Below, one piece after another: positions 8,225-39,813 of a DNA stretch of 64,000 nucleotides. Both the position numbers and the translations under genes were made by a program. The notes beneath the pieces are model-generated. The model made no database searches, was not told the origin of the DNA, and saw only the letters and a list, made by a program, of their open reading frames with translations. Origin of the DNA: Mucilaginibacter boryungensis (lineage in GTDB: Bacteria; Bacteroidota; Bacteroidia; Sphingobacteriales; Sphingobacteriaceae). The stretch covers positions 1,178,001 through 1,242,000 of the forward strand of contig NZ_JADFFM010000001.1 of NCBI RefSeq assembly GCF_015221995.1, given 5' to 3'. The first letter of the stretch is position 1, and each line of letters begins with the position of its first letter.

Positions 8225-8323
8225 ATTGTATTTACTTGAATTAGGCTTTGGTTACACTGATTACGCCATGTACCAAACGTTATAATTAATGAGGCTAATT
8301 TCAGTGTTTCATAATGTTTGTGT

Positions 8324-8358
8324 AGGGGACAAAATCACCAAAAAAGGGGGTAATACCA
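8324..8358 (-). promoter_or_regulatory. Direct repeats upstream of the enzyme operon, HTCS-like operator
   Basis: On the minus strand two copies of a GATTTTGTCCCCT-like element lie 21 bases apart (plus strand 8324-8337 and 8345-8358, 10 of 14 bases alike). The element and spacing resemble the repeats in front of the SusC operons at 8771 and 23570. Binding by the HTCS at 18678 is inferred. A clear -7 box at the expected distance is not visible; AACGTTTG (8274-8281, minus strand) is the nearest candidate. Confidence 0.4.
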
Positions 8359-8596
8359 TCATTCCCCATCCTTAATTGTTGCATAATTAAGCCGTCGGTT
8401 TGGGGGCTAACGTTTTTTGTGGCTATAAATTGTCTCCCTGTTTATTCGCGGAAAATAAGACGTAATCGGCTTTATGAAACCTATTAAACGTTAACGCACT
8501 GATGTGATGTATATTTGTATTGCTTATTGCATAAAAATAAAGCGGCTATGTGCTTGCCTACCCATACCGTACGCCGGGCGCATTTGGTCAAAGTAA

Positions 8597-23309: not shown

Positions 23310-23375
23310 TTAGGATTTTACCCCTAATTACTTAGGATTTTACCCCTCGTTTATAAGGCTTTAACTCCAGTTTTG
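23310..23375 (+). promoter_or_regulatory. HTCS operator (two 16-bp repeats) and promoter of the locus 2 susCD operon
   Basis: Two perfect copies of TTAGGATTTTACCCCT lie at 23310-23325 and 23332-23347, a period of 22 bases or about two helical turns. CAGTTTTG at 23368-23375 is a one-mismatch -7 box exactly 36 bases from the start of copy two. The same repeat, period and distance recur at 38158-38223. I infer the binding site of the HTCS encoded at 33955. Confidence 0.7.
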
Positions 23376-23396
23376 TTTAAACCAAATAAATCAACT

Positions 23397-23539
23397 ATGA
23401 AAACAATTATTTTTTGAGCATTCCCAACAATAAATCCAGCGCCTGCCCCGGTATACTGATCGCTTATCGTTTTGATAAGGCTACAGAAATGGGGCCAATA
23501 CAGATGGTACCCGGTTATGCTAACATGCACACTTACTAA
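23397..23539 (+). other. Untranslated leader with a broken small frame
   Basis: Between the promoter and the SusC start lies a leader of about 190 bases. An ATG at 23397 gives only MKTIIF before a stop. In another frame an open stretch reads CPGILIAYRFDKATEMGP and then runs to a stop at 23537. It has protein-like composition, but I do not recognise it. It may be a gene remnant or chance. Confidence 0.25.
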
Positions 23540-23569
23540 TTAAAAAATTAAAAATTAAGATGAATTAAA

Positions 23570-26500
23570 ATGGAGAAAATTTACTTATGCAAACACTTGA
23601 GTCTAAGCGTAAAAAGAATTATTATTAAAAGCCTGGCAATCATATCGATGTTGGTTTTAATCGTATCTGGCGCTTATGCCCAGTCGAGGAAAGTTTCCGG
23701 TACCGTAAAAGATGATAAAGGAGAATTATTGCCGGGCGTCACAGTTAAAGTCAAAAGTGGTGGTTCAATTACTACCACAAACACTACAGGCACATATACA
23801 ATTACTGTTCCTGATAATAATGCCACACTGGTATTTTCTTATGTGGGTTATGTATCTCAGGAAAAAGCAGTAGGCTCTGCCAATACGCTTGATATCGTGC
23901 TGGCAGATCAAAACACCAATTTAACGGATGTAGTAGTAGTGGGCTACGGTGTACAAAAAAAGGTAAACGTAATAGGTTCGGTAGCAACAATCAGCTCGAA
24001 GGATTTGGAGAACCGTCCTGTGGCTAATGTTTCATCAGCCTTAACCGGGTTAAGCGCGGGCGTAGCGGTAAGGCAAACCTCGGGCATGCCCGGCAGCGAC
24101 GGGGCTACCATCCGTATCAGGGGCACGGGTACCTTGAATAGCAATACCGCACTTGTTATTGTTGACGGAATACAAGGTGTATTGGATGCCATAAACCCCG
24201 ATGATATAGAAAGCATTTCGATATTAAAGGATGCGGCCGCAGCCTCTATTTATGGCTCATTAGCCGCCAACGGTGTAATTCTGGTTACCACCAAAAAAGG
24301 AGCCAAGAATAAAACTACTATTACCTACAACGGTATTGCTTCTAAAACAGATCCCAGCAACCTGCCATCATTTGTTTCAGATTATGTGCGGCATATGCAA
24401 CTGGTAAATGAAGGCTATGCTAACCTGGGGCAAACCCCTGTATATACAGCTACAACTATTGCTACCTGGCAAAAAGCCAACGCCGACCCTAATGGTTTAA
24501 ACAGCATTGGTGTGCCTAATTATATTGCATATCCTAATACCAACTGGGCAAAAGCCATTTTTGAGAAAAATATATTACAGGATCATAACTTATCTGTAAA
24601 CGGTGGAAATGAAACTACACAGTATTTATTATCGGCGGCTTATTTGCATAACCCCGGTACGATGGAAAACACCGGCTCAGACAGGTATAATTTTAGAGTG
24701 AACCTGCAAACAAAAGCAACTAAATTTTTAACGTTGGGCACCCAAACATATGCTTCTGTGCAAACCTATGGACTGGCCAGTACGGGTAACGCATTTAATT
24801 TTTTAAGGCAAACCACACCAGGTGTTTATCCCATCTATAACGGCAAATATGGTTTCCCATCAGCGCCTGAAGAATCATCAACGGCAAATAATATTCTCAG
24901 CTATTTAAACACTACGGGCGGCAGCGATCAGGAATCGCGCATTAATACCACGCTTTTTGCCAATGTAAATTTGTACAAAGGTTTAGTTTTGGAAACCAAG
25001 TTCAATTACCAAACCCGCTTTGAAGAGAACAATTCACATGCCATCCCTTTCGAAAAATGGGATTTCTCAACCAATACATTAAAACAAGGACAAGCGGCAG
25101 CAAGTCAGTTAACCACTTACTATGATTTTAATAAGAATGCCCAGTATACGTTTGATGCGGTGTTGAGATACAATACTACTATAGCCAAAAATCATGATAT
25201 TGGCGCGTTGGTAGGGTTTAATCAATACTATTATAACTATTATTACTTTGACGCCACCAAACTGGGGCTGATAGACCCAACCATTACCACACTTAGCTCG
25301 GCCACTACGCCTACGGCCAGCACTGGCGATAAATACGATTATTCTTTACGGTCTATATTCGGCCGTTTGAATTATGCTTTTAAACAACGCTACTTGGTCG
25401 AAGCGGTATTCAGGTACGATGGCTCCTCAAAGTTTGCAGCGAATAACCGATGGGGCTTTTTCCCGGCCTTTTCAGCTGGTTGGCGCCTTTCAGAAGAGCC
25501 ATTTATGAAAGACGTTAACAATTACGTTAGTAATTTAAAATTACGTGCATCGTGGGGGCAAACAGGTAATAACGGGTCGGTTGGTAATTATGACTATCAG
25601 GCAAATTACAATACAAATGCCTATTCCTTTAATGGTACTGCGGTAACAGGTTTGGCTTCAGGCAAATTTCCTAACCCTAACTTGAAATGGGAAACCACAA
25701 CAACCTCTAATATAGGTTTGGACGGTTCTCTGTTTAACGGTAAACTGGATTTCGAATTAGACGTATACCGTAAATACACCAGTGGGATATTATTTACGCC
25801 AACTATACCGCTTACAGTAGGTACCGCCTCGGCTGCAACACAAAACATTGCTGAAGTATCTAACAAAGGGGTCGAACTAACGCTTGGATACAAAGGCAGG
25901 ACCGGAAAAATAAGCTATAATGTTTCAGGTAACTTTGCCTACAACTTTAACAGGGTTGAAAATTATAAGGGTGTGCTGCAGGAAGGCTATACAACCGATG
26001 CTACCACCGGTGCAAGTGTCTATTCATCTAATTTAGGCCAGGTTTCAAGCGGGGGCACCTCACGCATTATACAAGGTCATGGTATCAATGAATATTATTT
26101 GTACCAGGTTTATAAGGGTGACGGAAATTATTATAATACAGACGGTTCTGTTAATGTAAGCGGCGGTCCTAAAGATGGTATGATCAGAACACCACAGGAT
26201 CTGGCATGGCTGCAAAGTATGGTTGCTGCCGGTTATAAATTTCAACCCGGCAATGCTATTGGCAAAACTAAGATATATTATGGCGATTTAATTTATGCTG
26301 ATACCAACGGTGACGGTATTTATGGCAACAGCTTTGATGCACGGCTTACTGGAAAATCATCGACCCCAAGGTACAACGCCGGCCTGCAATTCAATGTAGC
26401 CTATAAAGGCTTCGATCTGTTTACCATATGGGCGGGCAGCTTTGGTATGTATTATTATTGGAATGATATAGGCTATAACAATTCCATCGTCTCTTTGGGT

Positions 26501-26869
26501 AACGCGGTTAGTACATTGGTAGCTAATGATCATTATTATTATAATGATGCCAACCCGGCCGATCCGGCTAATAATATTACAGCGCATTATCCGCGTCTTA
26601 AAAATACTTCGGATGTGCAAAATGCTGCTGTGGCGAGTGATTTTTATCTGTATAATGCTTCTTATGTCAAACTTAAAAATGTGCAGTTAGGCTATACACT
26701 ACCCAAAAGTATAACTGAAAAATGGTCTATGACGAAGATCAGGATTTACTTAAGTTCAGAGAATTTGTTCACCATAACAAAATATCCGGGTTTAGATCCT
26801 GAAATAGGGCCCAGCGTAGGTTACCCAACCATGCGTCAGTTTGCTGTTGGTTTAAACGCGACATTTTAA
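23570..26869 (+). CDS. SusC-like TonB-dependent transporter of locus 2
   Basis: This 1099-residue protein has a rather long signal region (about 1-37, ending GAYAQ), a carboxypeptidase-D-regulatory-like domain (about 41-112), a TonB-box region TDVVVVGYGVQKK (119-131), a plug with IRIRGTGTLNSN and IESISILKDAAAASIYGSLAANG, and then the barrel ending in GLNATF. It starts an operon whose promoter carries the 16-bp HTCS repeats, and its SusD begins 18 bases downstream. With fucosidase, galactosidases, hexosaminidase and sulfatase nearby, a fucosylated and sulfated oligosaccharide is the likely cargo; that is inferred from context. Confidence 0.95.
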   Translation: MEKIYLCKHLSLSVKRIIIKSLAIISMLVLIVSGAYAQSRKVSGTVKDDKGELLPGVTVKVKSGGSITTTNTTGTYTITVPDNNATLVFSYVGYVSQEKAVGSANTLDIVLADQNTNLTDVVVVGYGVQKKVNVIGSVATISSKDLENRPVANVSSALTGLSAGVAVRQTSGMPGSDGATIRIRGTGTLNSNTALVIVDGIQGVLDAINPDDIESISILKDAAAASIYGSLAANGVILVTTKKGAKNKTTITYNGIASKTDPSNLPSFVSDYVRHMQLVNEGYANLGQTPVYTATTIATWQKANADPNGLNSIGVPNYIAYPNTNWAKAIFEKNILQDHNLSVNGGNETTQYLLSAAYLHNPGTMENTGSDRYNFRVNLQTKATKFLTLGTQTYASVQTYGLASTGNAFNFLRQTTPGVYPIYNGKYGFPSAPEESSTANNILSYLNTTGGSDQESRINTTLFANVNLYKGLVLETKFNYQTRFEENNSHAIPFEKWDFSTNTLKQGQAAASQLTTYYDFNKNAQYTFDAVLRYNTTIAKNHDIGALVGFNQYYYNYYYFDATKLGLIDPTITTLSSATTPTASTGDKYDYSLRSIFGRLNYAFKQRYLVEAVFRYDGSSKFAANNRWGFFPAFSAGWRLSEEPFMKDVNNYVSNLKLRASWGQTGNNGSVGNYDYQANYNTNAYSFNGTAVTGLASGKFPNPNLKWETTTTSNIGLDGSLFNGKLDFELDVYRKYTSGILFTPTIPLTVGTASAATQNIAEVSNKGVELTLGYKGRTGKISYNVSGNFAYNFNRVENYKGVLQEGYTTDATTGASVYSSNLGQVSSGGTSRIIQGHGINEYYLYQVYKGDGNYYNTDGSVNVSGGPKDGMIRTPQDLAWLQSMVAAGYKFQPGNAIGKTKIYYGDLIYADTNGDGIYGNSFDARLTGKSSTPRYNAGLQFNVAYKGFDLFTIWAGSFGMYYYWNDIGYNNSIVSLGNAVSTLVANDHYYYNDANPADPANNITAHYPRLKNTSDVQNAAVASDFYLYNASYVKLKNVQLGYTLPKSITEKWSMTKIRIYLSSENLFTITKYPGLDPEIGPSVGYPTMRQFAVGLNATF

Positions 26870-26887
26870 TCATAAAATAAAATAACG

Positions 26888-28654
26888 ATGAAAAAGATAT
26901 TGACAATAATATTAACCTTAGTGATTGTAACAGGTTGTAGAAAAAACCTGCTTGATACCTCTCCTTATTCTTCTGTAGCCAGTTCTACCATGTGGACTAC
27001 GGACAATTTAACCGACCTTGGAGTGACAGGGGTATATCAGGCATTAAGATTAGGTGAAAACTCGGGTGGCGATTCTGGATTGGAATTATATATGCTGGAC
27101 CGTTTCGGGTTTACCGGACAAACAAGAAGTCAGGAATCTATGTTATCCGGTACGATCACATCGGGCAACGGTATTTATAGCAGTACCTGGCAAAATTTAT
27201 ATGAAGGGATCCAGCGCTCAAACGATGCAATCAAAAACATCCCATTGAAATCGCCTTCCGATGCAGCTAAAAAGGCGCGTTATATAGCCGAATGTAAATT
27301 TTTAAGGGCTTATTTTTACCTGCGTCTTAATCAGCTTTGGAAAGGTGTACCTATTTACCTGGAGCCATTTACACCCGATGAGGCCACTAAGGCCCGGTCA
27401 TCAGAAACTGATGTTTGGAACCAGGTTGTGGCCGATCTTACAGCAGCTATTAATGAACCTAACCTGCCCGCTATTTATGCAGCTGGTAATGCCAATTATG
27501 GCCATGTTACCAAAGGGGCTGCTTATGCTTTGCGCGGTAAGGCTTATATGTATATGCAGAAATGGGATTTAGCCGCTGCCGATTTCGCGCTGGTTAAAGC
27601 TGCAGGCTATGCGCTTTATGGCAACTATACGGCGTTATTTAAAACTGCAAATGAACAATGCAGCGAAATGATATTTTCCATACAGAATGTAGGTGTTGCC
27701 GGTGGCGGCACACCGGGTTACGGTTCCACCACGCAATGGTTCTGCGGCACGCGGTCATCTTTCGGTTCCTGCTGGAATGATTATATGGTATCTCCAAACC
27801 TGGTCGACCTTTATCAAAATCTGGATGGTTCAACCTTTAATTGGGATAGTGTATTGCCAGGATATTCCAGCCTGACACCAGCACAAAGGGAAGTATTCTT
27901 TTTACGAAATAACCTTACCCCTGCAGAAATTGCTGCTGCAACAACCCGTGGCGCGCAAATGAGCCTTTATTTACCCACAGGGAACGAGGCCCGGATATTG
28001 CAGGCGTATGCTAACCGCGATCCGCGTTTGGCGGCCAACGTAATTACGCCGTATGCTACTTACAATGGGGTTTATAATTCGCTTAACGCTGTGCTTACCT
28101 CGCGCTGGCCGTACCGTGCCGAAGGTGCAGTAAACGGCGACTTGCGTACCGATACCCAGAGCCTTTTTTATTATCTATATAGGAAATTTGTTTATGAAGG
28201 TAATGCCGAGTTGATCAATAGATCGTACGGTCCAACCGATTTTCCTCTGATCAGGTATGCTGATGTGTTATTGATGTGGGCTGAAGCGTTGAATGAACAA
28301 GGGTTAACCTCCGAGGCGATTGCTAAAGTAAATGAGGTGAGGGCACGGGCTGGTGTAGCCTTGCTTAACTCAAACGCGGCAACAACAGTTGCTGGCCAGG
28401 CTGATTTGAGGGAACGCATCAGAAATGAGCGTCGTGTGGAATTCCCTAATGAAGGCATTAATTATTTCGATGAGTTACGCTGGAAATCGTGGAAAGATAA
28501 AGTGTTTTATACCGGCAATGGTGTAAAACAGGTTTGGGGTGCAAATGTGTATGCCTATTCTTTCCAGGGCGATTATCTCTATACCTGGCCAATACCGCTG
28601 GTAGAGATACAAAGAAACCCAAATTTGACACAGAACGCCGGCTGGATTAATTAA
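26888..28654 (+). CDS. SusD-like surface glycan-binding lipoprotein of locus 2
   Basis: This 588-residue lipoprotein has a lipobox ending at Cys17 (VIVTGCRK). SusD landmarks include AECKFLRAYFYLRLNQLWKG, KGAAYALRGKAYMYMQKWDLAA, LIRYADVLLMWAEALNEQG and NERRVEFPNEGINYFDELRW. It is the partner of the SusC that ends 18 bases upstream. A strong hairpin follows at 28666-28707 before the GH29 gene, so the pair can be made in excess over the enzymes. Confidence 0.95.
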   Translation: MKKILTIILTLVIVTGCRKNLLDTSPYSSVASSTMWTTDNLTDLGVTGVYQALRLGENSGGDSGLELYMLDRFGFTGQTRSQESMLSGTITSGNGIYSSTWQNLYEGIQRSNDAIKNIPLKSPSDAAKKARYIAECKFLRAYFYLRLNQLWKGVPIYLEPFTPDEATKARSSETDVWNQVVADLTAAINEPNLPAIYAAGNANYGHVTKGAAYALRGKAYMYMQKWDLAAADFALVKAAGYALYGNYTALFKTANEQCSEMIFSIQNVGVAGGGTPGYGSTTQWFCGTRSSFGSCWNDYMVSPNLVDLYQNLDGSTFNWDSVLPGYSSLTPAQREVFFLRNNLTPAEIAAATTRGAQMSLYLPTGNEARILQAYANRDPRLAANVITPYATYNGVYNSLNAVLTSRWPYRAEGAVNGDLRTDTQSLFYYLYRKFVYEGNAELINRSYGPTDFPLIRYADVLLMWAEALNEQGLTSEAIAKVNEVRARAGVALLNSNAATTVAGQADLRERIRNERRVEFPNEGINYFDELRWKSWKDKVFYTGNGVKQVWGANVYAYSFQGDYLYTWPIPLVEIQRNPNLTQNAGWIN

Positions 28655-28665
28655 TTAACGTTATG

Positions 28666-28707
28666 AGTAATAACCATCCTGCTTATTATAAGCAGATGGT
28701 TATTACT
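28666..28707 (+). terminator. Long hairpin behind susD, attenuator or mRNA-stabilising
   Basis: AGTAATAACCATC plus CTGCTT (28666-28684) pairs with AAGCAG plus ATGGTTATTACT (28690-28707) with a single bulged base. The 18 base pairs enclose a 5-base loop, and AT-rich sequence follows. It lies between susD and the fucosidase gene, which reads the same way. Partial termination or protection of the susCD mRNA is likely. Confidence 0.6.
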
Positions 28708-28739
28708 TATTTATTAAACTAATCTGCATTAATTTCAAT

Positions 28740-29837
28740 ATGCAACTCCACAAACTACTTTTCTTTTTATGGATGATCACCGTATCGGTACAGGCGCAAA
28801 ACAAAAGTTTTGTAAGTATAAACCCTACCGACACCGAGGCTGATATTGTTTTTAAGGCAGCACATGTTATACCAACAGCCAGGCAGCTTCGCTGGCAACA
28901 GCTGGAATTAACCGCATTTTTTCATTTTGGGATCAACACCTTTACAGATAAAGAATGGGGCGATGGTAAAGAAGATATTTTGCAATTTAACCCTACAAAA
29001 CTTGATGCCAGACAATGGGTGAAAACGGTTAAGGATGCTGGTTTTAAACAGGTAATCCTCACTGCTAAACATCATGATGGATTTTGTTTATGGCCAAGTG
29101 CTTATACCGGGCATACAATCAAAAACACGCCTTATCAAAATGGCAAAGGTGATATTGTAAAAGAAGTTGCGGAAGCCTGCGCGCAATATCATATTGGGTT
29201 TGGGGTTTACCTATCCCCTTGGGACAGAAATTCATCCTATTATGGCGATTCCATTAAATACAATGCTTATTTCGAGCATCAGCTAACCGAACTATTAAGT
29301 AATTATGGTAAAATAGATGAGGTGTGGTTTGATGGCGCGAATGGCGAGGGACCTAACGGTAAAAAACAGGTTTATAATTTTAATAGTTGGTATAAATTAA
29401 TCCGTAGGTTACAGCCACAAGCTGTTATTGCGATACAGGGCCCCGATGTACGGTGGGTAGGTACCGAAACAGGTAAAGGCAGATTAACTGAATGGAGCGT
29501 ATTGCCGGTAGATGAGCAGGAGCAAAGAAAAATAGCCGATGCATCTCAAAAAGATGTAATGATAAAACCTACTATTTTTAAAGCAGGTGATGACTTAGGC
29601 AGCCGCGAGCGTATAAAAAATGCCAGGGGTTTAGTTTGGTATCCGGCCGAAACGGATGTATCTATCCGCCCAGGCTGGTTTAATCACCCGGCAGAAAAGG
29701 AAAAAGCAAAGACAGCCCGCCAATTAATGGATATATATTATACATCAGTCGGTCGGAATAGCGTACTGCTATTGAATATACCGCCTGATAAAAGCGGACT
29801 AATCAGCAAAGGCGATATTATTAATTTGAAGGAATAG
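28740..29837 (+). CDS. GH29 alpha-L-fucosidase, C-terminal domain lost
   Basis: This 365-residue frame covers a signal peptide (about 1-20) and the complete GH29 TIM barrel. FHFGINTF (61-68), AKHHDGF (109-115) and EVWFDGA with nucleophile D198 are intact. It removes terminal alpha-linked fucose. The frame ends at an amber codon (29835-29837), directly followed in frame by sequence encoding a discoidin-like domain, so the enzyme is shorter than homologs of this type. The catalytic part should still fold. It is the first enzyme gene after susCD, 32 bases after the hairpin. Confidence 0.88.
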   Translation: MQLHKLLFFLWMITVSVQAQNKSFVSINPTDTEADIVFKAAHVIPTARQLRWQQLELTAFFHFGINTFTDKEWGDGKEDILQFNPTKLDARQWVKTVKDAGFKQVILTAKHHDGFCLWPSAYTGHTIKNTPYQNGKGDIVKEVAEACAQYHIGFGVYLSPWDRNSSYYGDSIKYNAYFEHQLTELLSNYGKIDEVWFDGANGEGPNGKKQVYNFNSWYKLIRRLQPQAVIAIQGPDVRWVGTETGKGRLTEWSVLPVDEQEQRKIADASQKDVMIKPTIFKAGDDLGSRERIKNARGLVWYPAETDVSIRPGWFNHPAEKEKAKTARQLMDIYYTSVGRNSVLLLNIPPDKSGLISKGDIINLKE

Positions 29838-30250
29838 GTATTGTTACGCAATGCAATATTTAGCCACAATTTAATAAAAGGCGCTATAGTTAGTTGCAGT
29901 AACGGTATACGCAATCATATTTTGGTTAATGATCCGTCTGGTAAATGGTGGACAACAAAAGCAAACGATACCACGGCCGCAATTGAATTTACCACGCAGC
30001 AGCCTATTGCTTTTAATGTGTTGCAACTACAGGAAAATATCAGTCAGGGACAACGAATAGAAAAATTCCGTTTACAATATCAGGATAAGGGCGCGTGGAA
30101 GGATATACAGAGGGGACTACGGTTGGTTATAAACGACTGCTTACCTTTAAAACCGTAACGGCCAACCGGATCAGACTAATGATTGATGCATCCCGGTTTA
30201 ACCCCGCGCTCACTGCTTTTGGCTTATTTAAAGATGCTGGTATGCTATAA
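29838..30250 (+). pseudogene. Broken F5/8-type (CBM32-like) C-terminal domain of the GH29 gene
   Basis: After the amber codon at 29835 the same frame continues with NLIKGAIVSCSNGI, KWWTTKAND, AAIEFTTQQPIAFNVLQLQE and FRLQYQDKGAWKDI, which matches a discoidin (F5/8 type C) domain. Near 30107-30112 one base has been lost. The frame moves from DIQRG to a frame reading GTTVGYKRLLTFKTVTANR, then IRLMID and FNPALTAFGLF, and stops at 30248-30250. A single ancestral gene from 28740 to 30250 thus carries two lesions. An independent start for this piece is unlikely. Confidence 0.8.
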
Positions 30251-30297
30251 ATAGTCTTAATGGTTCGTTTCAATCCGTGGTTTCACATTTAATTTTT

Positions 30298-32358
30298 ATG
30301 AACAGATCTTTGTTGAAATATATATATATATCACTTTTTATATTGCTACATCCACTGTCTGCAGTTGCAGATGTAACTAAACCATATTTAAATAATGTGC
30401 GAGAGGTTATTAATTTCAATAGCGACTGGAAATTCCATTTGGCTTACGATGTACGTAAAAAGCCAGAAATAATAAACGTTATGCTGCCGCATACATGGAA
30501 TGCTAAAGCTGCACTTGCGGGTAAAATTAATTATGAAAGAGAAACCGGTATTTATGAAAAATGCTTTTTTGTGAATGCAGCCTGGGGTAATAAACGTTTA
30601 TTCCTTTACTTTGATGGGGCTAATACAGTGGCTACAGTATTAGTTAACCAACATTTCATTACCGAGCATAAGGGGGGCTACACCGCTTTTTGTGTAGAGA
30701 TAACCAAATATGTAAAAGCAGGCGAAGTAAATCAGGTAGAAGTTCAGGTAAGTAATGCGTATCGAATGGACGTGTTGCCCTTATCAGGGGATTTTAATGT
30801 ATATGGAGGCATTCACCGGCCGGTATCGTTGCTGGTTACCTCAAAAGATTGTATATCGCCGTTGGATTATGCTTCGCCGGGTGTGTATCTAACGCCTCAA
30901 AATGTTTCAGCGCAATCGGCAACTGTTAATATATTAACCAAATTATCTATAACTGATTCCGCCAGGTTACAAATCAAAACAGAGATCAGGGATGCCAGGC
31001 AGCATATGGTTGCCGAAATTATTAACCCGGTAAGCAATTATGTGCAATGCTGGCAAACCATTAAGCTGAAACAACCACATTTATGGAATGGTAAAGCCGA
31101 TCCGTATTTGTATACAGTGTATGTGAAAATATTGAAAGACGGACAGCTTATAGACGAAGTGGCGCAGCCGCTGGGTTTAAAATACTTTAAGGTAGATGCC
31201 AATAAAGGTTTTATGCTGAACGGCAAATACCTGGATTTGCATGGTGTTGGTTTTCATGAAGATGTGGCTGGTAGAGGCTCGGCAATGCTTGTGGCCGATT
31301 ATCAAAAAGATATGCAATTAATTAATCAGATAGGGGCTACTTCCTTACGTTTAACGCATTATCCGCATGGTAAATATTTTTACAACCTGTGCGACAGGAA
31401 TGGCTTAGTGGTGTGGTCTGAAATTCCCTTTGTTGGCCCGGGAGGGTATACCGGCGCGGGTTATATTAAAAGCGATGCGTTGGAACTACAGGTAAAACAA
31501 GTGTTAACCGAAATGATACGTCAGAATTATAATCATCCATCTGTTTGTTTTTGGGGATTATTTAACGAATTAAAGCTTGACCATGATGACCCTGTCCCGT
31601 TTTTAAAAGAGTTGAATGCGCTGGCTAAAAAAGAAGATAGTACACGTTTAACTACCTGCGCGTCCTTTTTAGATAACGATCAGTTTAACCAGGTATCGGA
31701 TGTAATCGCATGGAATAAATATTATGGTTGGTACGGTGGAGAGTTTAAGCAGATCGGCATCTGGGCTGATAAAATGCATGCCCAATTTCCGCAAAAACCG
31801 TTCGCGGTAAGTGAGTATGGTGCCGGCGGGAGCCCGTTTAAACATACCGAACACGTTGAGAGACCGGTAGCTGACGGTACCTTTCACCCGGAAGAATGGC
31901 AAACACTCTATCATGAACAAAATTGGCGGGAATTAAATAAAAGGCCATTTGTGTGGGGCAAGTATGTGTGGGCCCTGGCCGATTTCGGCTCGTCAATACG
32001 TACAGAGGGCGATGCTGCAGGTATTAATGACAAGGGGCTTGTTACGTATGACCGCAAGATTAAAAAAGATGCTTTTTACTTTTACAAGGCCAACTGGAAC
32101 CCCGAACCAATGCTTTATATCACCGATCGTAGAAACACGATCAGGCATCATCAAAAATGCACCATTAAGGTTTATAGCAACGTTGCAGGCGTAGAGCTAT
32201 GGTTGAATGATGTATTTTTGAAAAAACAGGACCCTGATGAGTATCATACCATTAACTGGGAAAACATCAGGTTGATGAAGGGGAAAAACAAAATTGAAAT
32301 AAAAAGTAAGGTCAGCGGCCGGTTGTTGCGCGATACCTGTTATTGGATATTGAAATAG
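30298..32358 (+). CDS. GH2 family beta-galactosidase-like enzyme, secreted
   Basis: Counted from the ATG at 30298 this enzyme has 686 residues; a GTG at 30277 would add seven, but the ATG gives the cleaner signal peptide (about 1-24). It has the GH2 sandwich (about 35-180), an immunoglobulin-like domain, a TIM barrel and a short C-terminal domain. The acid/base is in FWGLFNELK (E424) and the nucleophile in FAVSEYGAG (E506). The architecture is that of GH2 beta-galactosidases, though other beta-glycosidase activities cannot be excluded. It follows the broken GH29 gene in the same operon, and the beta-helix gene starts 28 bases downstream. Confidence 0.92.
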   Translation: MNRSLLKYIYISLFILLHPLSAVADVTKPYLNNVREVINFNSDWKFHLAYDVRKKPEIINVMLPHTWNAKAALAGKINYERETGIYEKCFFVNAAWGNKRLFLYFDGANTVATVLVNQHFITEHKGGYTAFCVEITKYVKAGEVNQVEVQVSNAYRMDVLPLSGDFNVYGGIHRPVSLLVTSKDCISPLDYASPGVYLTPQNVSAQSATVNILTKLSITDSARLQIKTEIRDARQHMVAEIINPVSNYVQCWQTIKLKQPHLWNGKADPYLYTVYVKILKDGQLIDEVAQPLGLKYFKVDANKGFMLNGKYLDLHGVGFHEDVAGRGSAMLVADYQKDMQLINQIGATSLRLTHYPHGKYFYNLCDRNGLVVWSEIPFVGPGGYTGAGYIKSDALELQVKQVLTEMIRQNYNHPSVCFWGLFNELKLDHDDPVPFLKELNALAKKEDSTRLTTCASFLDNDQFNQVSDVIAWNKYYGWYGGEFKQIGIWADKMHAQFPQKPFAVSEYGAGGSPFKHTEHVERPVADGTFHPEEWQTLYHEQNWRELNKRPFVWGKYVWALADFGSSIRTEGDAAGINDKGLVTYDRKIKKDAFYFYKANWNPEPMLYITDRRNTIRHHQKCTIKVYSNVAGVELWLNDVFLKKQDPDEYHTINWENIRLMKGKNKIEIKSKVSGRLLRDTCYWILK

Positions 32359-32386
32359 GGTTGTTTACCCGGGATTAAATTTAGTT

Positions 32387-33853
32387 ATGAAAAAGATATT
32401 AATGTTGCTTCTGAGCTGTAATACACTGTATGCTTTAGGTAGTACTTACTATATTGATAACAAAAAGGGCGATGACATATTTGATGGTAAAAGCCCGGCA
32501 AAAGCCTGGAAAACATTAACTAAAATAAATAAGCAAACCTTTATGCCCGGCGATAGTGTACTATTTAAAAGGGATGGTATTTGGGAAGGGCAGCTTGCCC
32601 CATCCGGTTCTGGAGCTGAAAAGCAGCCTGTGGTTTTTGGCGCATATGGCACAGGAGCTCTACCGGAAATTAAGGCCGGAGGGTATGTCAGGGATGGTAT
32701 ATTATTGAAAAATGTCCAATATCTTGTAATAGAGCATATGGCTGTTTCAAACCTCGACAGCAGTGTGCCATTTCAAAAGAACGGTCCAACAGGGGTACGG
32801 CTACTGGCTGATAATGCCGGTACGTTGCATAACATTCGTTTGGCCAATTTATACATCCACGATATAAACGGGGATAACAAAAAAGGGACTAATGAAGGTT
32901 GCGGCATTTTTTGGGATTGCCAGGGGCCAATCCCCAGCAATTTTGAGCATCTTACTATTGAAAACTGCAAACTGGTGCGTATAGACCGTAACGGTATTCG
33001 CGGCAATGGTACATTTGGCATCCGCAGCAATTGGTTCCCCAACAAACATTTAGTGATTCGTAATTGCACTATGGATGATATTGGTGGCGATGGCATTGTA
33101 ATTAAGGCTTTTGACAATGCCTTAGTTGAGCATAACCAGCTTTTTCATATTCGTGCCCGGGCTAAAGATAATGCGGTTGCTATATGGCCCCATAGCAGCG
33201 ATAATACCACTATCCAATATAATGAGGTAGCTTATACCCGTAACGGCAACTGGGCAAACGATGGGCAATCGTTCGATATTGATGGTAATTGTCATAATAC
33301 AATTATTCAATATAATTATAGCCACGATAACGAGGGTGGCTTTATGTTGGTGATATCGGACGCTATTAATAAGGATAATATGATGACGAAGGGTAACATT
33401 ATCCGCTATAATCTAAGCGTTAACGATGGCCTTAACCGTAAGCGGTTGTTTAACTTTGCAGGGGTAACCGATAGCACAATTATTAAAGGCAACGTATTTT
33501 ACAATAATGCGGCAAAGCATTATACTATGGAGATAGCTGATATAGAAAATGGCATTGCTACGAATGTGGTTTTTGAGGATAACTACTTTTCCTATACCGG
33601 GGGAACGCCTGCATTATTCACTAAGTCACCAAAGCAGTACGGACAGTTTTTTTTCAATAATAATTATTTCGGCGGCTATGTGTTTGGCTTGGATAATTTA
33701 CCAAACCGTAAAGATAAGATAGGTGCTTATAATCGTGGAGAAACGAAAAAGCCAAAGGGTTCTTTTCCCTGGCTGTATTTACCTGCAAAGTTACGTAGTC
33801 AAACGAACCTATTCCCTGATGATTTATTTAGATCTTATTACGGGAAAAATTGA
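32387..33853 (+). CDS. Secreted right-handed beta-helix protein
   Basis: This 488-residue protein has a signal peptide (about 1-18) and starts its mature part with TYYIDNKKGDD, followed by AWKTLTKINKQTFMPGD. That is the usual entry to parallel beta-helix proteins of Bacteroidota PULs. Repeated short strands such as LVIEHMAVSN, LTIENCKLVRID and HLVIRNCTMDDIGGDGIVIK follow. Beta-helix folds occur in polysaccharide lyases, GH28 and GH110, but I cannot place this one and see no diagnostic catalytic motif. It has a paralogue at 38260 with the same opening. Its place between GH2 and the HTCS gene argues for a role on the locus 2 glycan. Confidence 0.85.
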   Translation: MKKILMLLLSCNTLYALGSTYYIDNKKGDDIFDGKSPAKAWKTLTKINKQTFMPGDSVLFKRDGIWEGQLAPSGSGAEKQPVVFGAYGTGALPEIKAGGYVRDGILLKNVQYLVIEHMAVSNLDSSVPFQKNGPTGVRLLADNAGTLHNIRLANLYIHDINGDNKKGTNEGCGIFWDCQGPIPSNFEHLTIENCKLVRIDRNGIRGNGTFGIRSNWFPNKHLVIRNCTMDDIGGDGIVIKAFDNALVEHNQLFHIRARAKDNAVAIWPHSSDNTTIQYNEVAYTRNGNWANDGQSFDIDGNCHNTIIQYNYSHDNEGGFMLVISDAINKDNMMTKGNIIRYNLSVNDGLNRKRLFNFAGVTDSTIIKGNVFYNNAAKHYTMEIADIENGIATNVVFEDNYFSYTGGTPALFTKSPKQYGQFFFNNNYFGGYVFGLDNLPNRKDKIGAYNRGETKKPKGSFPWLYLPAKLRSQTNLFPDDLFRSYYGKN

Positions 33854-33928
33854 CCTATAAAGTATCTGAGCAGTAATTACTATGCAACTTTAGTCTTAAT
33901 TGGCATCCCTACAATTAGATATCGCGCC

Positions 33929-33938
33929 GTAAAATCCT
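33929..33938 (-). promoter_or_regulatory. Inverted partial HTCS motif before the HTCS gene
   Basis: GTAAAATCCT on the plus strand is the exact reverse complement of the AGGATTTTAC core of the 16-bp repeats at 23310 and 38158. It stands alone, reversed, 16 bases before the HTCS start codon. Autoregulation is possible; a 10-base match may also be chance. Confidence 0.3.
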
Positions 33939-33954
33939 TAGTTTTATACTACTG

Positions 33955-36900
33955 ATGAAGTTAACGGTTAAAATATGTGTGTTGTTTACGCTGATGGCTT
34001 TAGGGACCTATGGCCAGCGTATAGCATTTGAAAATTTGACAGTGGATGATGGCCTGTCCCAAAATTCGGTGCTGGCCATTTCACAGGATAACCGCGGCTT
34101 TATGTGGTATGGTACTCAGCATGGTTTAAATAAATATGATGCCACTAATTTTAAAACTTACAAAAATAATGGGAGCGACAAATCAAGCCTTTCATCAGAT
34201 TATGTAACCTGTCTGTTGCTTGATTCCCATCAGCAACTTTGGATAGGTACCCGTAACGGGCTAAATAGATATAAACCCGAAACCGATAATTTTGAACGCA
34301 TCACTTTTAATAACACGCTTCAAAAAACCGGCAACCTAATTATTAGTTGTATTTATGAGGATAAGGAAAAAAATCTCTGGGTGTGGACTTCAAGGGGGCT
34401 TCATAAGCTTATCAACAGGGCAACTGCAAAGTTTGCCCCTTTGGCTATTTCCGATTCCGTTGCAGGTTTAAACGGAACCAACGTACATGTAATTTATCAG
34501 GATTATACCGGCAGCTACTGGCTAGGCTCATCGGCAGGCCTCACTAAAATGAAAATACAGCGGGGTCAATTAACCTTCCAAAAATATAGACATCAGGCAA
34601 CGCAAATAAATAGTTTAAGTGATAACTATGTAACAGCTATAACTGAAGATTTGAACCATCAGTTATGGGTAGGTACTTTGCATGGGGGTATTAATCTTTA
34701 TAATCGTGCCAATAACAGCTTCACTCGTTTTTTGAGTAACAATGGTAATCGCGGCCCCGTTAATAACAATATCCGCGTGCTGCGACCAGATAACTCAGGT
34801 AAAATATGGGTAGGTACGCAGGGTGGCCTTAACATACTCGATCCTTTAAACAAACAATTTATAGCTTATCAGCACAATCCGGAAGATAAAAGCAGCTTAA
34901 GTCAAAATTCTATATATGACATTTTTATTAATAAAAACAATATCGTGTGGATTGGCACCTATTGGGGGGGCATTAATATGGTATCCAGTCATAATACAGC
35001 TTTTCTGTCCTATCAAACTACCCATTATCATTCTACCATTAACAATAATGTGGTAAGTGCTATTGCAGAAGATATGCAGCATAACTTATGGATTGGTACA
35101 GAAGGTGGCGGACTGAATTATTTTGACCGTAAAAAAGATGTGGTTACTACTTATCAAAACAAAGTAAACAGTCCTTCATCATTAGGTTCTGATCTGATTA
35201 AAGTTATTTACATAGATAAAAGTAAAAATGTATGGGCGGGTACCCATGGTGGCGGTTTAAATCTTTTTAATCCATTAAGTAAACAGTTTACGCGGTTTTT
35301 GTATAAAGAAAATGATCCGGCTACGTTAAGTGCAGAAGTATTGTGTTTGCTGGAAGCCTCACAAGGGAATTTTTGGGTGGGTACTCAATCTGGTTTACGT
35401 GCTTACCGGCGAAATGATATTACACTGCAGGCCATCGGTCACCCGATCTTAAGTAAAATAGGCCACAGATCTATCAAAGGCTTATTAGAAGATAAAGATA
35501 AAAATATTTGGATAGGCACAAGTGAGGGCGTTTTTTTATTAAATGCAGTCACTGGCAAGGTAAGTATGTTCACTGTTGCCGATGGCCTAAAATCAAACGA
35601 TATCAATACCATATATCAGGATAGTAAAAGCCGGATATGGACAGGTTCGTATTACGGTGGGTTGGCAGTGTATAATAGTGAACTGAAAAGATTTACCAGT
35701 TATGGTGAGAAGGAGGGGTTGGCTAATGATAACGTTTTAGGGATATTGGAAGATGCCGGCAATAATCTTTGGGTAAGTACCGGCAATGGGTTATCAAAAT
35801 TTAGTATTGCTACACGGGCATTTAAAAACTATACCAAAAGTGATGGCCTGAGCGGCAATACTTTCAATATCAATTCCTGTTTAAAAACCAGCGATGGTGA
35901 AATGCTTTTTGGAGGTTTTAATGGTTTAACCAGTTTCTTTCCATCGCAAATTGAAGACAATAATGTGCCGCCGCCGGTGGTTATAACTTCGTTAAAACTG
36001 TTTGGCAAGCCAATTGGAATCAATCAGCCTGATAAGTTATTGAGCAAAGATATCAGCCTTACTGACAATATCATTTTTTCACATTCGCAAAATGTTTTTT
36101 CTATAGATTTTGCCGCCCTGAATTATATCAAATCTGAAAAAAATAAATACGCTTATAAACTGGAAGGCTTTGATAAAGATTGGGTGCGTACCAATATACC
36201 CTCGGCAACTTTTACCAATTTAGTACCCGGTAACTACACCTTTTTTGTAAAGGGGGCCAATAATGATGGGGTTTGGGGGCAGGCTGCAGAGCTGCGTATT
36301 AAAGTATTGCCACCTATTTGGGCCACAGGATGGGCTTATGTATTGTATGTGCTTTTTATAGGCGGCATTACATTTCTGTTGGCCCGTTTCTTTATTTTAC
36401 GGTCATTATTAAGGCGGGATAAAGAACTTACCTATTTAAAATTGAATTTTTTTACTAATATCTCTCATGAGATACGTACGCACCTTTCATTAATATTCGG
36501 CCCGCTTGAAAAGTTGATACTTGATGGAAATGCCGAAGGTAATAACACCACTCATTTGCAAATTGTTAAAAAAAATGCCGATAGCTTGCTTCAATTGGTA
36601 AATGAATTGATGGATTTTAGAAAAGCTGAGACCGGTAATCTGAAACTTAACATAGCAGCAGGTAATATTGTGACTTTACTGCGGGAGGTGTATAGTTCAT
36701 TTGATGAGTATGCGGTAACGCGGAATATCAGTACAAGCTTTATCACATCAGGCGATGATATAGAGTTGTACTTTGATATAGCCCAGCTGGAAAAGGTGTT
36801 TTTTAATTTGATCCATAACGCATTTAAATTCACAGGGGATAATGGGCAAATTGCTCTGCTTATTGAAGAAAGGAAATATGAAGTAATAATTACAGTAACC

Positions 36901-38037
36901 GATAACGGAAAAGGGATAGCGCCTGAAAACCTGAAAAGTTTATTTGAGAATTATTTTCAGGAAAATGATCATGGCAAGCAAAATACGGGTTATGGTATAG
37001 GCTTGGCCCTTGCCAAAAGTATTATAGAGTTGCACAAGGGCTTTATCGTTGTAGAAAGCAAGTTATCGCCGGAGGGAAATTATACCTCGTTTGCGGTTAC
37101 GTTATTAAAGGGGGCGGCCCATTTTAAAAATATACAGCCAAATGGCTTGCCCGTGACCGATTTGCAACCAAGCCATAAACCTTTTATAGTTGATTACTCC
37201 AAGAATCCTGATACAGCAATTAGCAAATTAATATCGTCTGCTAACAAGAAGAAGCTTGTTTTACTCGTTGAAGATAACCAGGATATTCGTGAATTTATCG
37301 GCAAGGCATTGCGTGAAAATTATGAAGTGATAGCAGTTGCCGATGGAATGAAAGGTTGGGAAGCAGCTTGTGAACACATACCAGATGTTATTATCAGCGA
37401 TGTGATGATGCCGGATATGGATGGCTTCGAACTATGTGATAAAATAAAAAGCGATGAAAGGACTAATCATATTCCGGTTATTCTTTTAACAGCCAAAGCG
37501 TCAGGCGTCTATCATGTTGAAGGATTGAAAATGGGTGCGGATGTTTATTTGACCAAGCCCTTTAGTGTTGAAGTATTGTTGTTGCAGGTAACAAATATGC
37601 TAAACAACAGCGAAAAACTCAGGTGTTTTATTAATAAACAACTTAAATCTACTCATGATTTAGCCAACGGCTTTTTGGTGGAAAACGTTGGCGAAAAAAC
37701 TAAAAAAATAGCACATTCAATTGATAATGAGTTTTTAAACAAGGCAATCAAAATTATTGAAGATCATCTTGATAATCCTGGGTTTAACGTATCCGAGTTA
37801 GCTAAAGCAGTAGCCATGAGTCAGCCAGTGTTGTATAAAAAACTGAATGCGCTTACCGGATTGTCTGTTAATGATTTTATCAAGTCCATCAAAATGAATA
37901 ATGCTGTTATATTGCTGCAAAGCAAGCGTTATACCATTAATGAAATAGCTTATATGGTAGGTTTCAGCGACAGGAAATATTTTAGCAAGGAATTTAAAAA
38001 ACAGTATGGAAAAACACCAAGTGAGTTTACGGCATAA
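33955..38037 (+). CDS. Hybrid two-component system regulator (HTCS) of locus 2
   Basis: This 1360-residue protein has a signal peptide (about 1-20), periplasmic propeller repeats (about 25-665, with motifs like LWIGTEGGGL), a Y_Y_Y domain (about 705-785), a membrane helix (about 792-815), a HisKA domain with FFTNISHEIRTHL (His838), an ATPase domain, a receiver with Asp1149 and Lys1201, and an AraC-type DNA-binding domain (about 1265-1355). The H box has His where most kinases have Pro. The length equals that of the locus 1 regulator, but the sequences differ throughout. It lies in the middle of locus 2 and probably acts on the repeat elements at 23310 and 38158. Confidence 0.95.
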   Translation: MKLTVKICVLFTLMALGTYGQRIAFENLTVDDGLSQNSVLAISQDNRGFMWYGTQHGLNKYDATNFKTYKNNGSDKSSLSSDYVTCLLLDSHQQLWIGTRNGLNRYKPETDNFERITFNNTLQKTGNLIISCIYEDKEKNLWVWTSRGLHKLINRATAKFAPLAISDSVAGLNGTNVHVIYQDYTGSYWLGSSAGLTKMKIQRGQLTFQKYRHQATQINSLSDNYVTAITEDLNHQLWVGTLHGGINLYNRANNSFTRFLSNNGNRGPVNNNIRVLRPDNSGKIWVGTQGGLNILDPLNKQFIAYQHNPEDKSSLSQNSIYDIFINKNNIVWIGTYWGGINMVSSHNTAFLSYQTTHYHSTINNNVVSAIAEDMQHNLWIGTEGGGLNYFDRKKDVVTTYQNKVNSPSSLGSDLIKVIYIDKSKNVWAGTHGGGLNLFNPLSKQFTRFLYKENDPATLSAEVLCLLEASQGNFWVGTQSGLRAYRRNDITLQAIGHPILSKIGHRSIKGLLEDKDKNIWIGTSEGVFLLNAVTGKVSMFTVADGLKSNDINTIYQDSKSRIWTGSYYGGLAVYNSELKRFTSYGEKEGLANDNVLGILEDAGNNLWVSTGNGLSKFSIATRAFKNYTKSDGLSGNTFNINSCLKTSDGEMLFGGFNGLTSFFPSQIEDNNVPPPVVITSLKLFGKPIGINQPDKLLSKDISLTDNIIFSHSQNVFSIDFAALNYIKSEKNKYAYKLEGFDKDWVRTNIPSATFTNLVPGNYTFFVKGANNDGVWGQAAELRIKVLPPIWATGWAYVLYVLFIGGITFLLARFFILRSLLRRDKELTYLKLNFFTNISHEIRTHLSLIFGPLEKLILDGNAEGNNTTHLQIVKKNADSLLQLVNELMDFRKAETGNLKLNIAAGNIVTLLREVYSSFDEYAVTRNISTSFITSGDDIELYFDIAQLEKVFFNLIHNAFKFTGDNGQIALLIEERKYEVIITVTDNGKGIAPENLKSLFENYFQENDHGKQNTGYGIGLALAKSIIELHKGFIVVESKLSPEGNYTSFAVTLLKGAAHFKNIQPNGLPVTDLQPSHKPFIVDYSKNPDTAISKLISSANKKKLVLLVEDNQDIREFIGKALRENYEVIAVADGMKGWEAACEHIPDVIISDVMMPDMDGFELCDKIKSDERTNHIPVILLTAKASGVYHVEGLKMGADVYLTKPFSVEVLLLQVTNMLNNSEKLRCFINKQLKSTHDLANGFLVENVGEKTKKIAHSIDNEFLNKAIKIIEDHLDNPGFNVSELAKAVAMSQPVLYKKLNALTGLSVNDFIKSIKMNNAVILLQSKRYTINEIAYMVGFSDRKYFSKEFKKQYGKTPSEFTA

Positions 38038-38157
38038 TTGTATTTAACTATAATATACCTCACAACTTCCCGCACAAAAGAACTACTAGTTTCCATCTTT
38101 TGCAACGGATATTGGAAATCAGCTAAATCCCAGCTGATCAATGCTCCCCGTAATTAA

Positions 38158-38223
38158 TTAGGATTTTACCCCGATATGCTTTGGATTTTACCCCCTATGG
38201 CTTACGGGGGTACCTTATTTTTG
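38158..38223 (+). promoter_or_regulatory. HTCS operator (two 16-bp repeats) and promoter of the second locus 2 unit
   Basis: TTAGGATTTTACCCCG (38158-38173) and TTTGGATTTTACCCCC (38180-38195) repeat with a 22-base period. TATTTTTG at 38216-38223 is an exact TAnnTTTG -7 box, 36 bases from the start of copy two, exactly as at 23310-23375. The start codon of the beta-helix lipoprotein lies 36 bases after the box. Confidence 0.75.
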
Positions 38224-38259: not shown

Positions 38260-39813
38260 ATGAAAATGAGAAACACATTACTAGCATTGCCTGTATTGAC
38301 GATACTGCTATGCGCCGGATGCAAAAAATCATCAAGCGGCCTGTTAAACGAAAAAGCCGGGGCTGATCCAAACACACTTGGTGTCAGACGAAGTATGACA
38401 ACGGCAATAAGCGGAACTACTTATTATATCGATCCCACAGGGGATGATAATAATAGCGGAACAAGTTCGGCTACCCCATGGAAAACCATTAATAAAGTAA
38501 ATGCCCAAACTTTTTTACCTGGCGACCATATCCTGTTTAAGGCCGGCGGCGTCTGGTCGGGGAACATTGTGTTTTTAGGTTCAGGATCGGCTGGGAGCCC
38601 TATTGTCGTTGATCAGTATAGCACAGGCAATAAACCTGTTATTAATGGAGGGGGATTAGTAAACGGTTCTATTACACTTTTGGTCAATAACCAGTCATAC
38701 TGGGAAATTAATAATTTGGAGATTACAAATACTATTACAACAGGTCTGCATTATGCGGTTACAGGTATTAAAATAGGTAACTCCACCAGCAGTGTGGTCA
38801 GCCATGTATATGTAAAAAATTGTTACGTGCATGATGTTAATTCTACAGGTGTAGGAAATTCTAATTATAATAAAGGTACGGGCGGTATCATTGTATCAGG
38901 TTATTTTAATGATATTTTGGTGGATAGCTGCCATGTAGCCAACTGTCAGATAGAAGGGATCCGCACTACCTCCAGTTCGCCGCTTTCAACAAACGTGACT
39001 TTCTCAAATAATCTGATTGAAAATATCTACGGAGACGGCATAGTAATGAGCAGCGTTCAAAGTGGGGGCTTGATAACTGGCAACATTGTACATAATGCCT
39101 GTATAACCAATGCGGCGAATTTTGCCGGAATTTGGACTTACAATGAAAGTGGTACAGTTATCTCACATAATGAAGTATACGGGCTCACCGGCGGATTAAA
39201 TGACGGGCAAGCTTTTGATGCCGATATCAACACAAGCGGCGATATTTTTGAATATAACTACTCACATGATAATTACCGGGGGTTTATGTTATTTATGCCC
39301 AGTGCAAAAAACATTACCGTGCGTTATAATATTAGTGCCAACGATGCCAAAGGTGGAACAAAGGTGTTTAATTTTACGGCGACTGACGTTAACAACCAGC
39401 TTTATAACAACGTTTTTTATCTTACCAATAATATTACCTATTTCTTTCAAACCAAGTTTATCGGTTCGTTCACCAATAACATCATCAGCAGCACAGGTAC
39501 GGTAACTAATTTTTCACAAAACACAATGTCATCCGATGCGCGCTTTTTAAACAATTGTATTTATCCAAACGCGGTTATTCTCGCAAGCAACTGGAATGGG
39601 TGTTACCATTCCAACAACATATTTTTTGCACCGAAATTTACAAACCCAACGGCGTATGGTATAGGCCGAAATACAGCCACTGCATTTAGCCTGCAAAGCA
39701 CATCACCATGTATCGCTGCGGGATTAATTATTGCTAACAATGGTGGCTATGATTTCTTTAACACAGCTTTGTCAGCAAGCGGGAACCCTGATGTTGGCGC
39801 AATTAAATATTAA
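38260..39813 (+). CDS. Beta-helix surface lipoprotein
   Basis: This 517-residue protein has a lipobox ending at Cys21 (LLCAGCKK), so it should be a lipoprotein, perhaps surface-exposed. After a linker the mature part opens with TYYIDPTGDDNNSG, then PWKTINKVNAQTFLPGD and KAGGVWSGNIVF, closely parallel to the protein encoded at 32387. Short beta-helix turns follow (WEINNLEITN, VYVKNCYVHDVNS, VTFSNNLIENIYGDGIV). Lipid anchoring suggests a surface role, either binding or first cleavage of the glycan; no catalytic residues can be named. It is the first gene behind the second HTCS-type promoter. Confidence 0.85.
   Translation: MKMRNTLLALPVLTILLCAGCKKSSSGLLNEKAGADPNTLGVRRSMTTAISGTTYYIDPTGDDNNSGTSSATPWKTINKVNAQTFLPGDHILFKAGGVWSGNIVFLGSGSAGSPIVVDQYSTGNKPVINGGGLVNGSITLLVNNQSYWEINNLEITNTITTGLHYAVTGIKIGNSTSSVVSHVYVKNCYVHDVNSTGVGNSNYNKGTGGIIVSGYFNDILVDSCHVANCQIEGIRTTSSSPLSTNVTFSNNLIENIYGDGIVMSSVQSGGLITGNIVHNACITNAANFAGIWTYNESGTVISHNEVYGLTGGLNDGQAFDADINTSGDIFEYNYSHDNYRGFMLFMPSAKNITVRYNISANDAKGGTKVFNFTATDVNNQLYNNVFYLTNNITYFFQTKFIGSFTNNIISSTGTVTNFSQNTMSSDARFLNNCIYPNAVILASNWNGCYHSNNIFFAPKFTNPTAYGIGRNTATAFSLQSTSPCIAAGLIIANNGGYDFFNTALSASGNPDVGAIKY

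Follow-up and report, generated by a model that had tools for sequence, protein, structure and literature searches.

A predicted direct-repeat operator for a hybrid two-component regulator at two promoters of a susC/susD locus in Mucilaginibacter boryungensis

Hybrid two-component systems (HTCSs) govern much of complex-glycan use in Bacteroidota, and their DNA sites are, with few exceptions, either unmapped or known only as predictions. A comparable arrangement of AraC-type sites is found at araBAD, where the tandem I1 and I2 half-sites of AraC lie about 21 bp apart and the proximal one overlaps the -35 element, giving class II activation. Among the HTCSs, 16 regulators of Bacteroides thetaiotaomicron have predicted direct-repeat sites whose mean distance is 21 bp, an arrangement explained there by dimers that sit on one face of the DNA (Ravcheev et al. 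2013, PMC3878776). In the HTCS_Man motif of the same species, two 16-bp sites are separated by a 5-bp spacer (PMC3878776). On the experimental side, receiver-AraC fragments of BT4124 and BT4663 bind the bt4114 and bt4662 susC promoters, which contain a predicted site, in a phosphorylation-dependent manner (PMC11253607).

The window analysed here is a 64,000-nucleotide stretch of the M. boryungensis genome. Several SusC/SusD pairs and glycosidases are encoded in it, as are two HTCSs, referred to below as H1 and H2. H2 (33955-38037, forward strand) carries a Reg_prop sensor, Y_Y_Y, HisKA, HATPase, receiver and AraC domain (the last at about 37723-38034) in a single protein, with every required domain over its cut-off and with the kinase motif SHEIRTH and the receiver motif SDVMMPD present. 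By sequence, the nearest solved relatives of its AraC domain are an HTCS entry and AraC. As in HTCSs of PULs, H2 is encoded beside susC/susD and glycoside hydrolase genes. These lie on the same strand and begin with susC3, the first predicted target gene, which encodes a SusC/RagA TonB-dependent transporter (23570-26869), followed by a SusD-family lipoprotein (26888-28654), an alpha-L-fucosidase-like protein of GH29 type (28740-29837), a GH2 protein near the NCBIfam beta-glucuronidase LacZ4 but below its cut-off (30277-32358) and a conserved 488-aa protein that adjoins H2 (32387-33853) and has its own operator in two relatives. Downstream of H2, also on the forward strand, lies the second predicted target, a gene for a probably secreted beta-helix protein (38260-39813) whose homologs carry the operator even when unlinked. 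H1 (18678-22760) is encoded on the reverse strand and is 32% identical to H2.

Several features of these genes are recorded for their own sake. The fucosidase-like gene (28740-30158) is interrupted by an in-frame stop at 29835-29837, leaving an F5/8C remainder at 29841-30158, and its orthologs are single open frames of 504-522 aa. The 32387-33853 and 38260-39813 proteins match the N-terminal part only of the NCBIfam lacto-N-biosidase LnbX, far below its cut-off, and the latter also has a beta-helix domain. Taken with the nearby fucosidase, GH20, GH35, GH109, sulfatase and fucose isomerase, the LnbX-like matches hint at a fucosylated GlcNAc/galactose glycan as substrate.

Between the H1 start and susC3, the 16-mer TTAGGATTTTACCCCT occurs as a perfect copy at 23310-23325, conserved before susC3 in 11 relatives, and again in identical form at 23332-23347 (operator 1). 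Between H2 and the beta-helix gene it recurs at 38158-38173 with one change and at 38180-38195 with two (operator 2). Both pairs are oriented as the downstream gene, with copy one distal and copy two proximal to the promoter, and in both the -7 box, CAGTTTTG at 23368-23375 and TATTTTTG at 38216-38223 (all forward strand), begins 36 bases downstream of the first base of copy two. The initial annotation had reported TTAGGATTTTACCCC pairs at 23310/23332 and 38158/38180 with a period of 22 and this box offset at both promoters, and its positions, change counts and distance were all reproduced. The box CAGTTTTG departs from TAnnTTTG at base one, and across the sites the -7 boxes are mostly CAnnTTTG instead of TAnnTTTG, which fits a promoter that would need help.

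A single 16-mer at up to three mismatches is expected 1.06 times per window and is not significant alone, while the pair at 22 bp is. No 16-mer match at up to three mismatches exists in the 64-kb window beyond the four copies, and an unbiased window scan for intergenic 14-mers repeated at 20-23 bp returned these two places alone. The initial annotation had also proposed a genome scan for the pair at 22-bp spacing; searching the 4.88 Mb genome for GGATTTTACCCC-N10-GGATTTTACCCC at up to three mismatches confined it to these promoters, with one degenerate third copy overlapping the first pair at about 23354. This third copy (11 of 15 matches) was taken as chance and is not kept in relatives. A generic scan for sigma-70 promoters and terminators gave counts equal to those of shuffles.

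Since operator 1 lies between the H1 start and susC3 while operator 2 adjoins H2, the neighbourhood alone cannot tell which HTCS binds. A set of 150 Mucilaginibacter genomes was therefore informative. Orthologs of the H2 DNA-binding domain at 61% identity or above are present in 13 of them, including this one, and are set off by a clear gap from the next domains at about 53%. In 12 of the 13, this genome included, the susC3 ortholog is preceded by the pair, with the same -7 box offset in all 12 promoters; in the thirteenth (G068) the contig starts after susC3, and the pair lies before the beta-helix homolog on another contig. All 12 relatives with an H2 ortholog have the pair, whether before the susC ortholog (11), the 38260 homolog (seven, five of them unlinked) or the orf-HTCS2 unit (two, G036 and G076, where it is an additional pair). 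Column conservation across the 12 susC3 promoters is 0.90 and 0.94 for the two copies and 0.89 for the -7 box, whereas upstream sequence scores 0.51 and the linker 0.59. Among the first 17 sites the period is 22 in every case, placing two direct repeats close to 21 bp apart before PUL operons, and the box stands at 36 in 15, so that copy two ends exactly 21 bp before it in those 15. At some beta-helix promoters the box begins at 35 instead; in two of these it ends in TTTA, and in four its first base is G.

A strict pattern, TTACCCC-N15-TTACCCC-N21-YAnnTTTG with at most one mismatch, was searched in the 150 genomes together with a reversed control pattern. It gave 18 matches in 13 genomes and the control none. 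Fourteen of these matches are in 11 H2-ortholog genomes, and the other four are in G090 and G124 beside HTCSs whose domains are about 50-55% identical; at some of these sites the 5' half is altered (for example CGAAAATTACCCC), and the spacing is unaltered. Two genus matches, in G024:C24 and G116, were discarded as lying inside an unrelated reading frame. The motif is kept where the orthologous HTCS is present and missing where it is absent; for the strict pattern and H2, co-occurrence gives a Fisher p of about 4e-13, a value that ignores shared ancestry and treats related genomes as independent. The annotation had named the same pair at many unrelated promoters as the outcome that would speak against it, and this was not found in either the home genome or the 150 genus genomes.

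Because the Fisher test ignores shared ancestry, more weight was given to unlinked targets. Homologs of the beta-helix protein occur in nine genomes, eight of which have H2. In all eight the homolog has the pair, with 24-29 of 30 matches (a score reached by none of 1000 shuffles), and copy two lies 80-113 bases upstream of where the match begins. In five of the eight, the beta-helix gene lies on another contig or megabases from H2, and the pair is still present. In G143, which is without an H2 ortholog, two beta-helix homologs are without the pair and score at background, 14 and 16 of 30. Since the pair tracks H2 at unlinked beta-helix genes, a shared regulator can be set apart from an inherited promoter block. 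The assignment to the 33955 HTCS, made in the initial annotation, is supported: across the 150 genomes the repeat follows the DNA-binding domain of H2 and not that of its neighbour, including at the unlinked target.

Turning to other genera, the operator recurs with unchanged geometry in Pedobacter species whose DNA-binding domain is 56-62% identical, and in Pedobacter rhodius (L177) the two copies are reproduced to the letter. Scanning named genomes yielded 18 further sites in Pedobacter, other Sphingobacteriia and Cytophagales, all intergenic and mostly before susC. When repeats were counted without bias before 503 -7-like boxes at these loci, the peak fell at period 22 (23 promoters versus two in shuffled sequence). 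In four loci with 61-65% domain identity (L165-L168), no site was found within range at up to three mismatches, and a search for repeats of the same geometry at the other HTCSs of the M. boryungensis genome found none. As a separate observation, Bacteroides sp. 51 has a series of intergenic tandem units, several in number and each 22 bp long (CAACCGGATT.ATCC...), at L172:16356-16450, about 6 kb from an HTCS and unlike the operator at 23310.

The repeats, their geometry, their conservation and their co-occurrence with H2 are read directly from the DNA, and together they indicate that the pair is very probably the operator of the HTCS at 33955. From them we infer binding, control by phosphorylation, activation as opposed to repression, the transcript unit and the ligand. 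In the proposed mechanism, glycan binding in the periplasm would make H2 autophosphorylate and pass the phosphate to its receiver domain. A pair of AraC-type domains would then occupy the two half-sites head to tail on one helix face, since 22 bp make about two turns. As in sites of class II activators of the AraC family, the proximal half-site covers the -33/-35 place at a fixed distance. Because it stops 21 bp short of the -7 box, where the -33 element is missing, the proximal protomer would be well placed to touch RNA polymerase in the manner of such activators. H2 is predicted to control the susC-susD-fucosidase-GH2-orf-HTCS unit as well as the beta-helix gene at 38260, and if the susC-to-HTCS unit is one transcript, H2 would be subject to positive autoregulation.

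Every susC3 leader also contains a short ORF that starts 29-31 bases after the -7 box start. In M. boryungensis it encodes MKTIIF* (23397-23417, forward strand), and in the 11 relatives the peptide is MKExxxx*, exactly seven codons long. Because the stop varies among TAA, TAG and TGA while its position is fixed, the pattern suggests that the leader ORF is translated. It is not a general feature: 11 of 94 susC leaders have it, the matches being the susC3-ortholog peptides of Mucilaginibacter, and it is absent from Pedobacter leaders.

The regulator nearest to operator 1 is H1, which is divergent from the first promoter at a distance of 550 bp, and repeats of H1-clade HTCSs share the TTTACCCC core, so that operator 1 might be read as a site of H1 (18678-22760). 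This is highly improbable given that the closest H1 orthologs (domain identity 90% in G049, 80% in G053 and 75% in G035) are in genomes without the TTAGGATTTTACCCC pair, while relatives that have no H1-like HTCS in the neighbourhood still have the pair at their susC3 promoters. The H1 clade instead goes with (A/T)TTTACCCCC repeats that are without AGGA. A candidate H1 operator of this kind, GGTATTACCCCC...GATTTTGTCCCC with a period of about 22 bp, lies at 8322-8360 on the reverse strand and was read by eye against H1-ortholog promoters. This stretch, with its repeated ATTACCCCC / TTTGTCCCC, is upstream of a GH88-like/GH43/GH2/GH35/GH16 operon. A milder version of the idea, compatible with H2 as the main regulator, is that both HTCSs bind and cross-talk through a common ACCCC half; the TTTACCCC core and similar period in both clades speak for it, but the 5' half and helix 3 differ between the H1 and H2 clades and no genome test shows any co-dependence of the two HTCSs, which makes it unlikely.

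Two further explanations dispense with the HTCSs as binders. The genome encodes about 20 other AraC-type proteins, and the site could in principle belong to an AraC protein of the one-component type or to some other regulator inherited along with the cluster. What accompanies the operator across genera despite different neighbours is the HTCS and its domain, and among the frames compared in the shared neighbourhoods there is no other constant regulator gene, leaving this reading with very little probability. The least probable account is that the repeats are kept merely by descent of the promoter block, or form a mobile or structural repeat. The spacer is indeed partly conserved among susC3 promoters (0.80), yet the same half-sites occur at unrelated promoters (susC3, beta-helix and orf32387) with different spacers and flanks, unlinked loci carry them only in genomes with the HTCS, and the 4.88 Mb genome holds no extra copies of the pair. 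The trans test largely refutes it.

With H2 as the preferred regulator, its recognition helices can be compared with those of H1. Domains that go with the TTAGGATTTTACCCC-pair operator have SQ(P/S)(V/I)LYKK in helix 3 and, in nearly all cases, DRKYFSxEFKK in helix 6 (DRKYF with one exception). In H1 the helices read SYSNLYKR and DVKYFREN, differing from the H2 type, and H1-type domains in general have S(Y/H)(S/P)xL(Y/F)K and D(I/M/V/L)KYFRE. The two groups share the ACCCC box and differ in the 5' box, which suggests that the 5' box is read by helix 3 and the 3' box by helix 6; only a few cases have a changed helix 3, making this a lead and not a result. The two helices of MarA likewise read separate boxes. 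A wider, tentative proposal, which we consider possible but somewhat doubtful, is that HTCS operators are bipartite and readable, with helix 6 reading a 3' ACCCC box common to several HTCS clades and helix 3 reading the 5' box (SQP..YKK with TTAGRA, other helix-3 types with other boxes). If such a code is true, the operators and regulons of many uncharacterised HTCSs could be predicted by combining the domain sequence with the constant spacings of 22 bp and 36 bp.

The practical value of the prediction lies in its precision. Half-site, spacing and promoter distance are tied to one regulator by a cross-genome trans test. The predicted operator reaches beyond Bacteroides and lends itself to direct, cheap gel-shift and reporter assays. 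The pattern also permits regulons to be listed in Mucilaginibacter and Pedobacter genomes and is a first step towards deducing the specificity of HTCSs from their recognition helices.

In the open-access literature, no description of a TTAGGATTTTACCCC-pair operator in Mucilaginibacter or Pedobacter was found. Relative to AraC at I1-I2, operators 1 and 2 are alike in having tandem half-sites with the proximal one over the -33/-35 place. Unlike H2, AraC is a cytoplasmic sugar sensor that works without a phosphorelay at a sigma-70 promoter, whereas the H2 sites are of the Bacteroidota -33/-7 type; no evidence of a DNA loop is seen at these operators. BT4124 and BT4663 share the protein architecture of H2, the evidence being experimental there and drawn from sequence alone here (PMC11253607). 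The initial annotation held that few HTCSs have mapped sites, which is right for experiments but not for the architecture as a novelty, since repeats of about 21 bp had been predicted for 16 HTCSs (PMC3878776). Compared by spacing and architecture, the operator resembles those motifs in its tandem two-site direct repeat of about 21 bp, its place before susC/susD operons and the AraC-domain HTCS in the locus, and differs in its period of 22, its occurrence in Sphingobacteriaceae, its fixed -7 distance and a trans target for which a genome lacking the regulator served as comparison (PMC3878776). The architecture is already known from the Bacteroides predictions, and the operator described here is a further case of HTCS direct repeats; what is new is the half-site, a distance to the promoter that is constant and class-II-like, the regulon in trans and the signature in helix 3.
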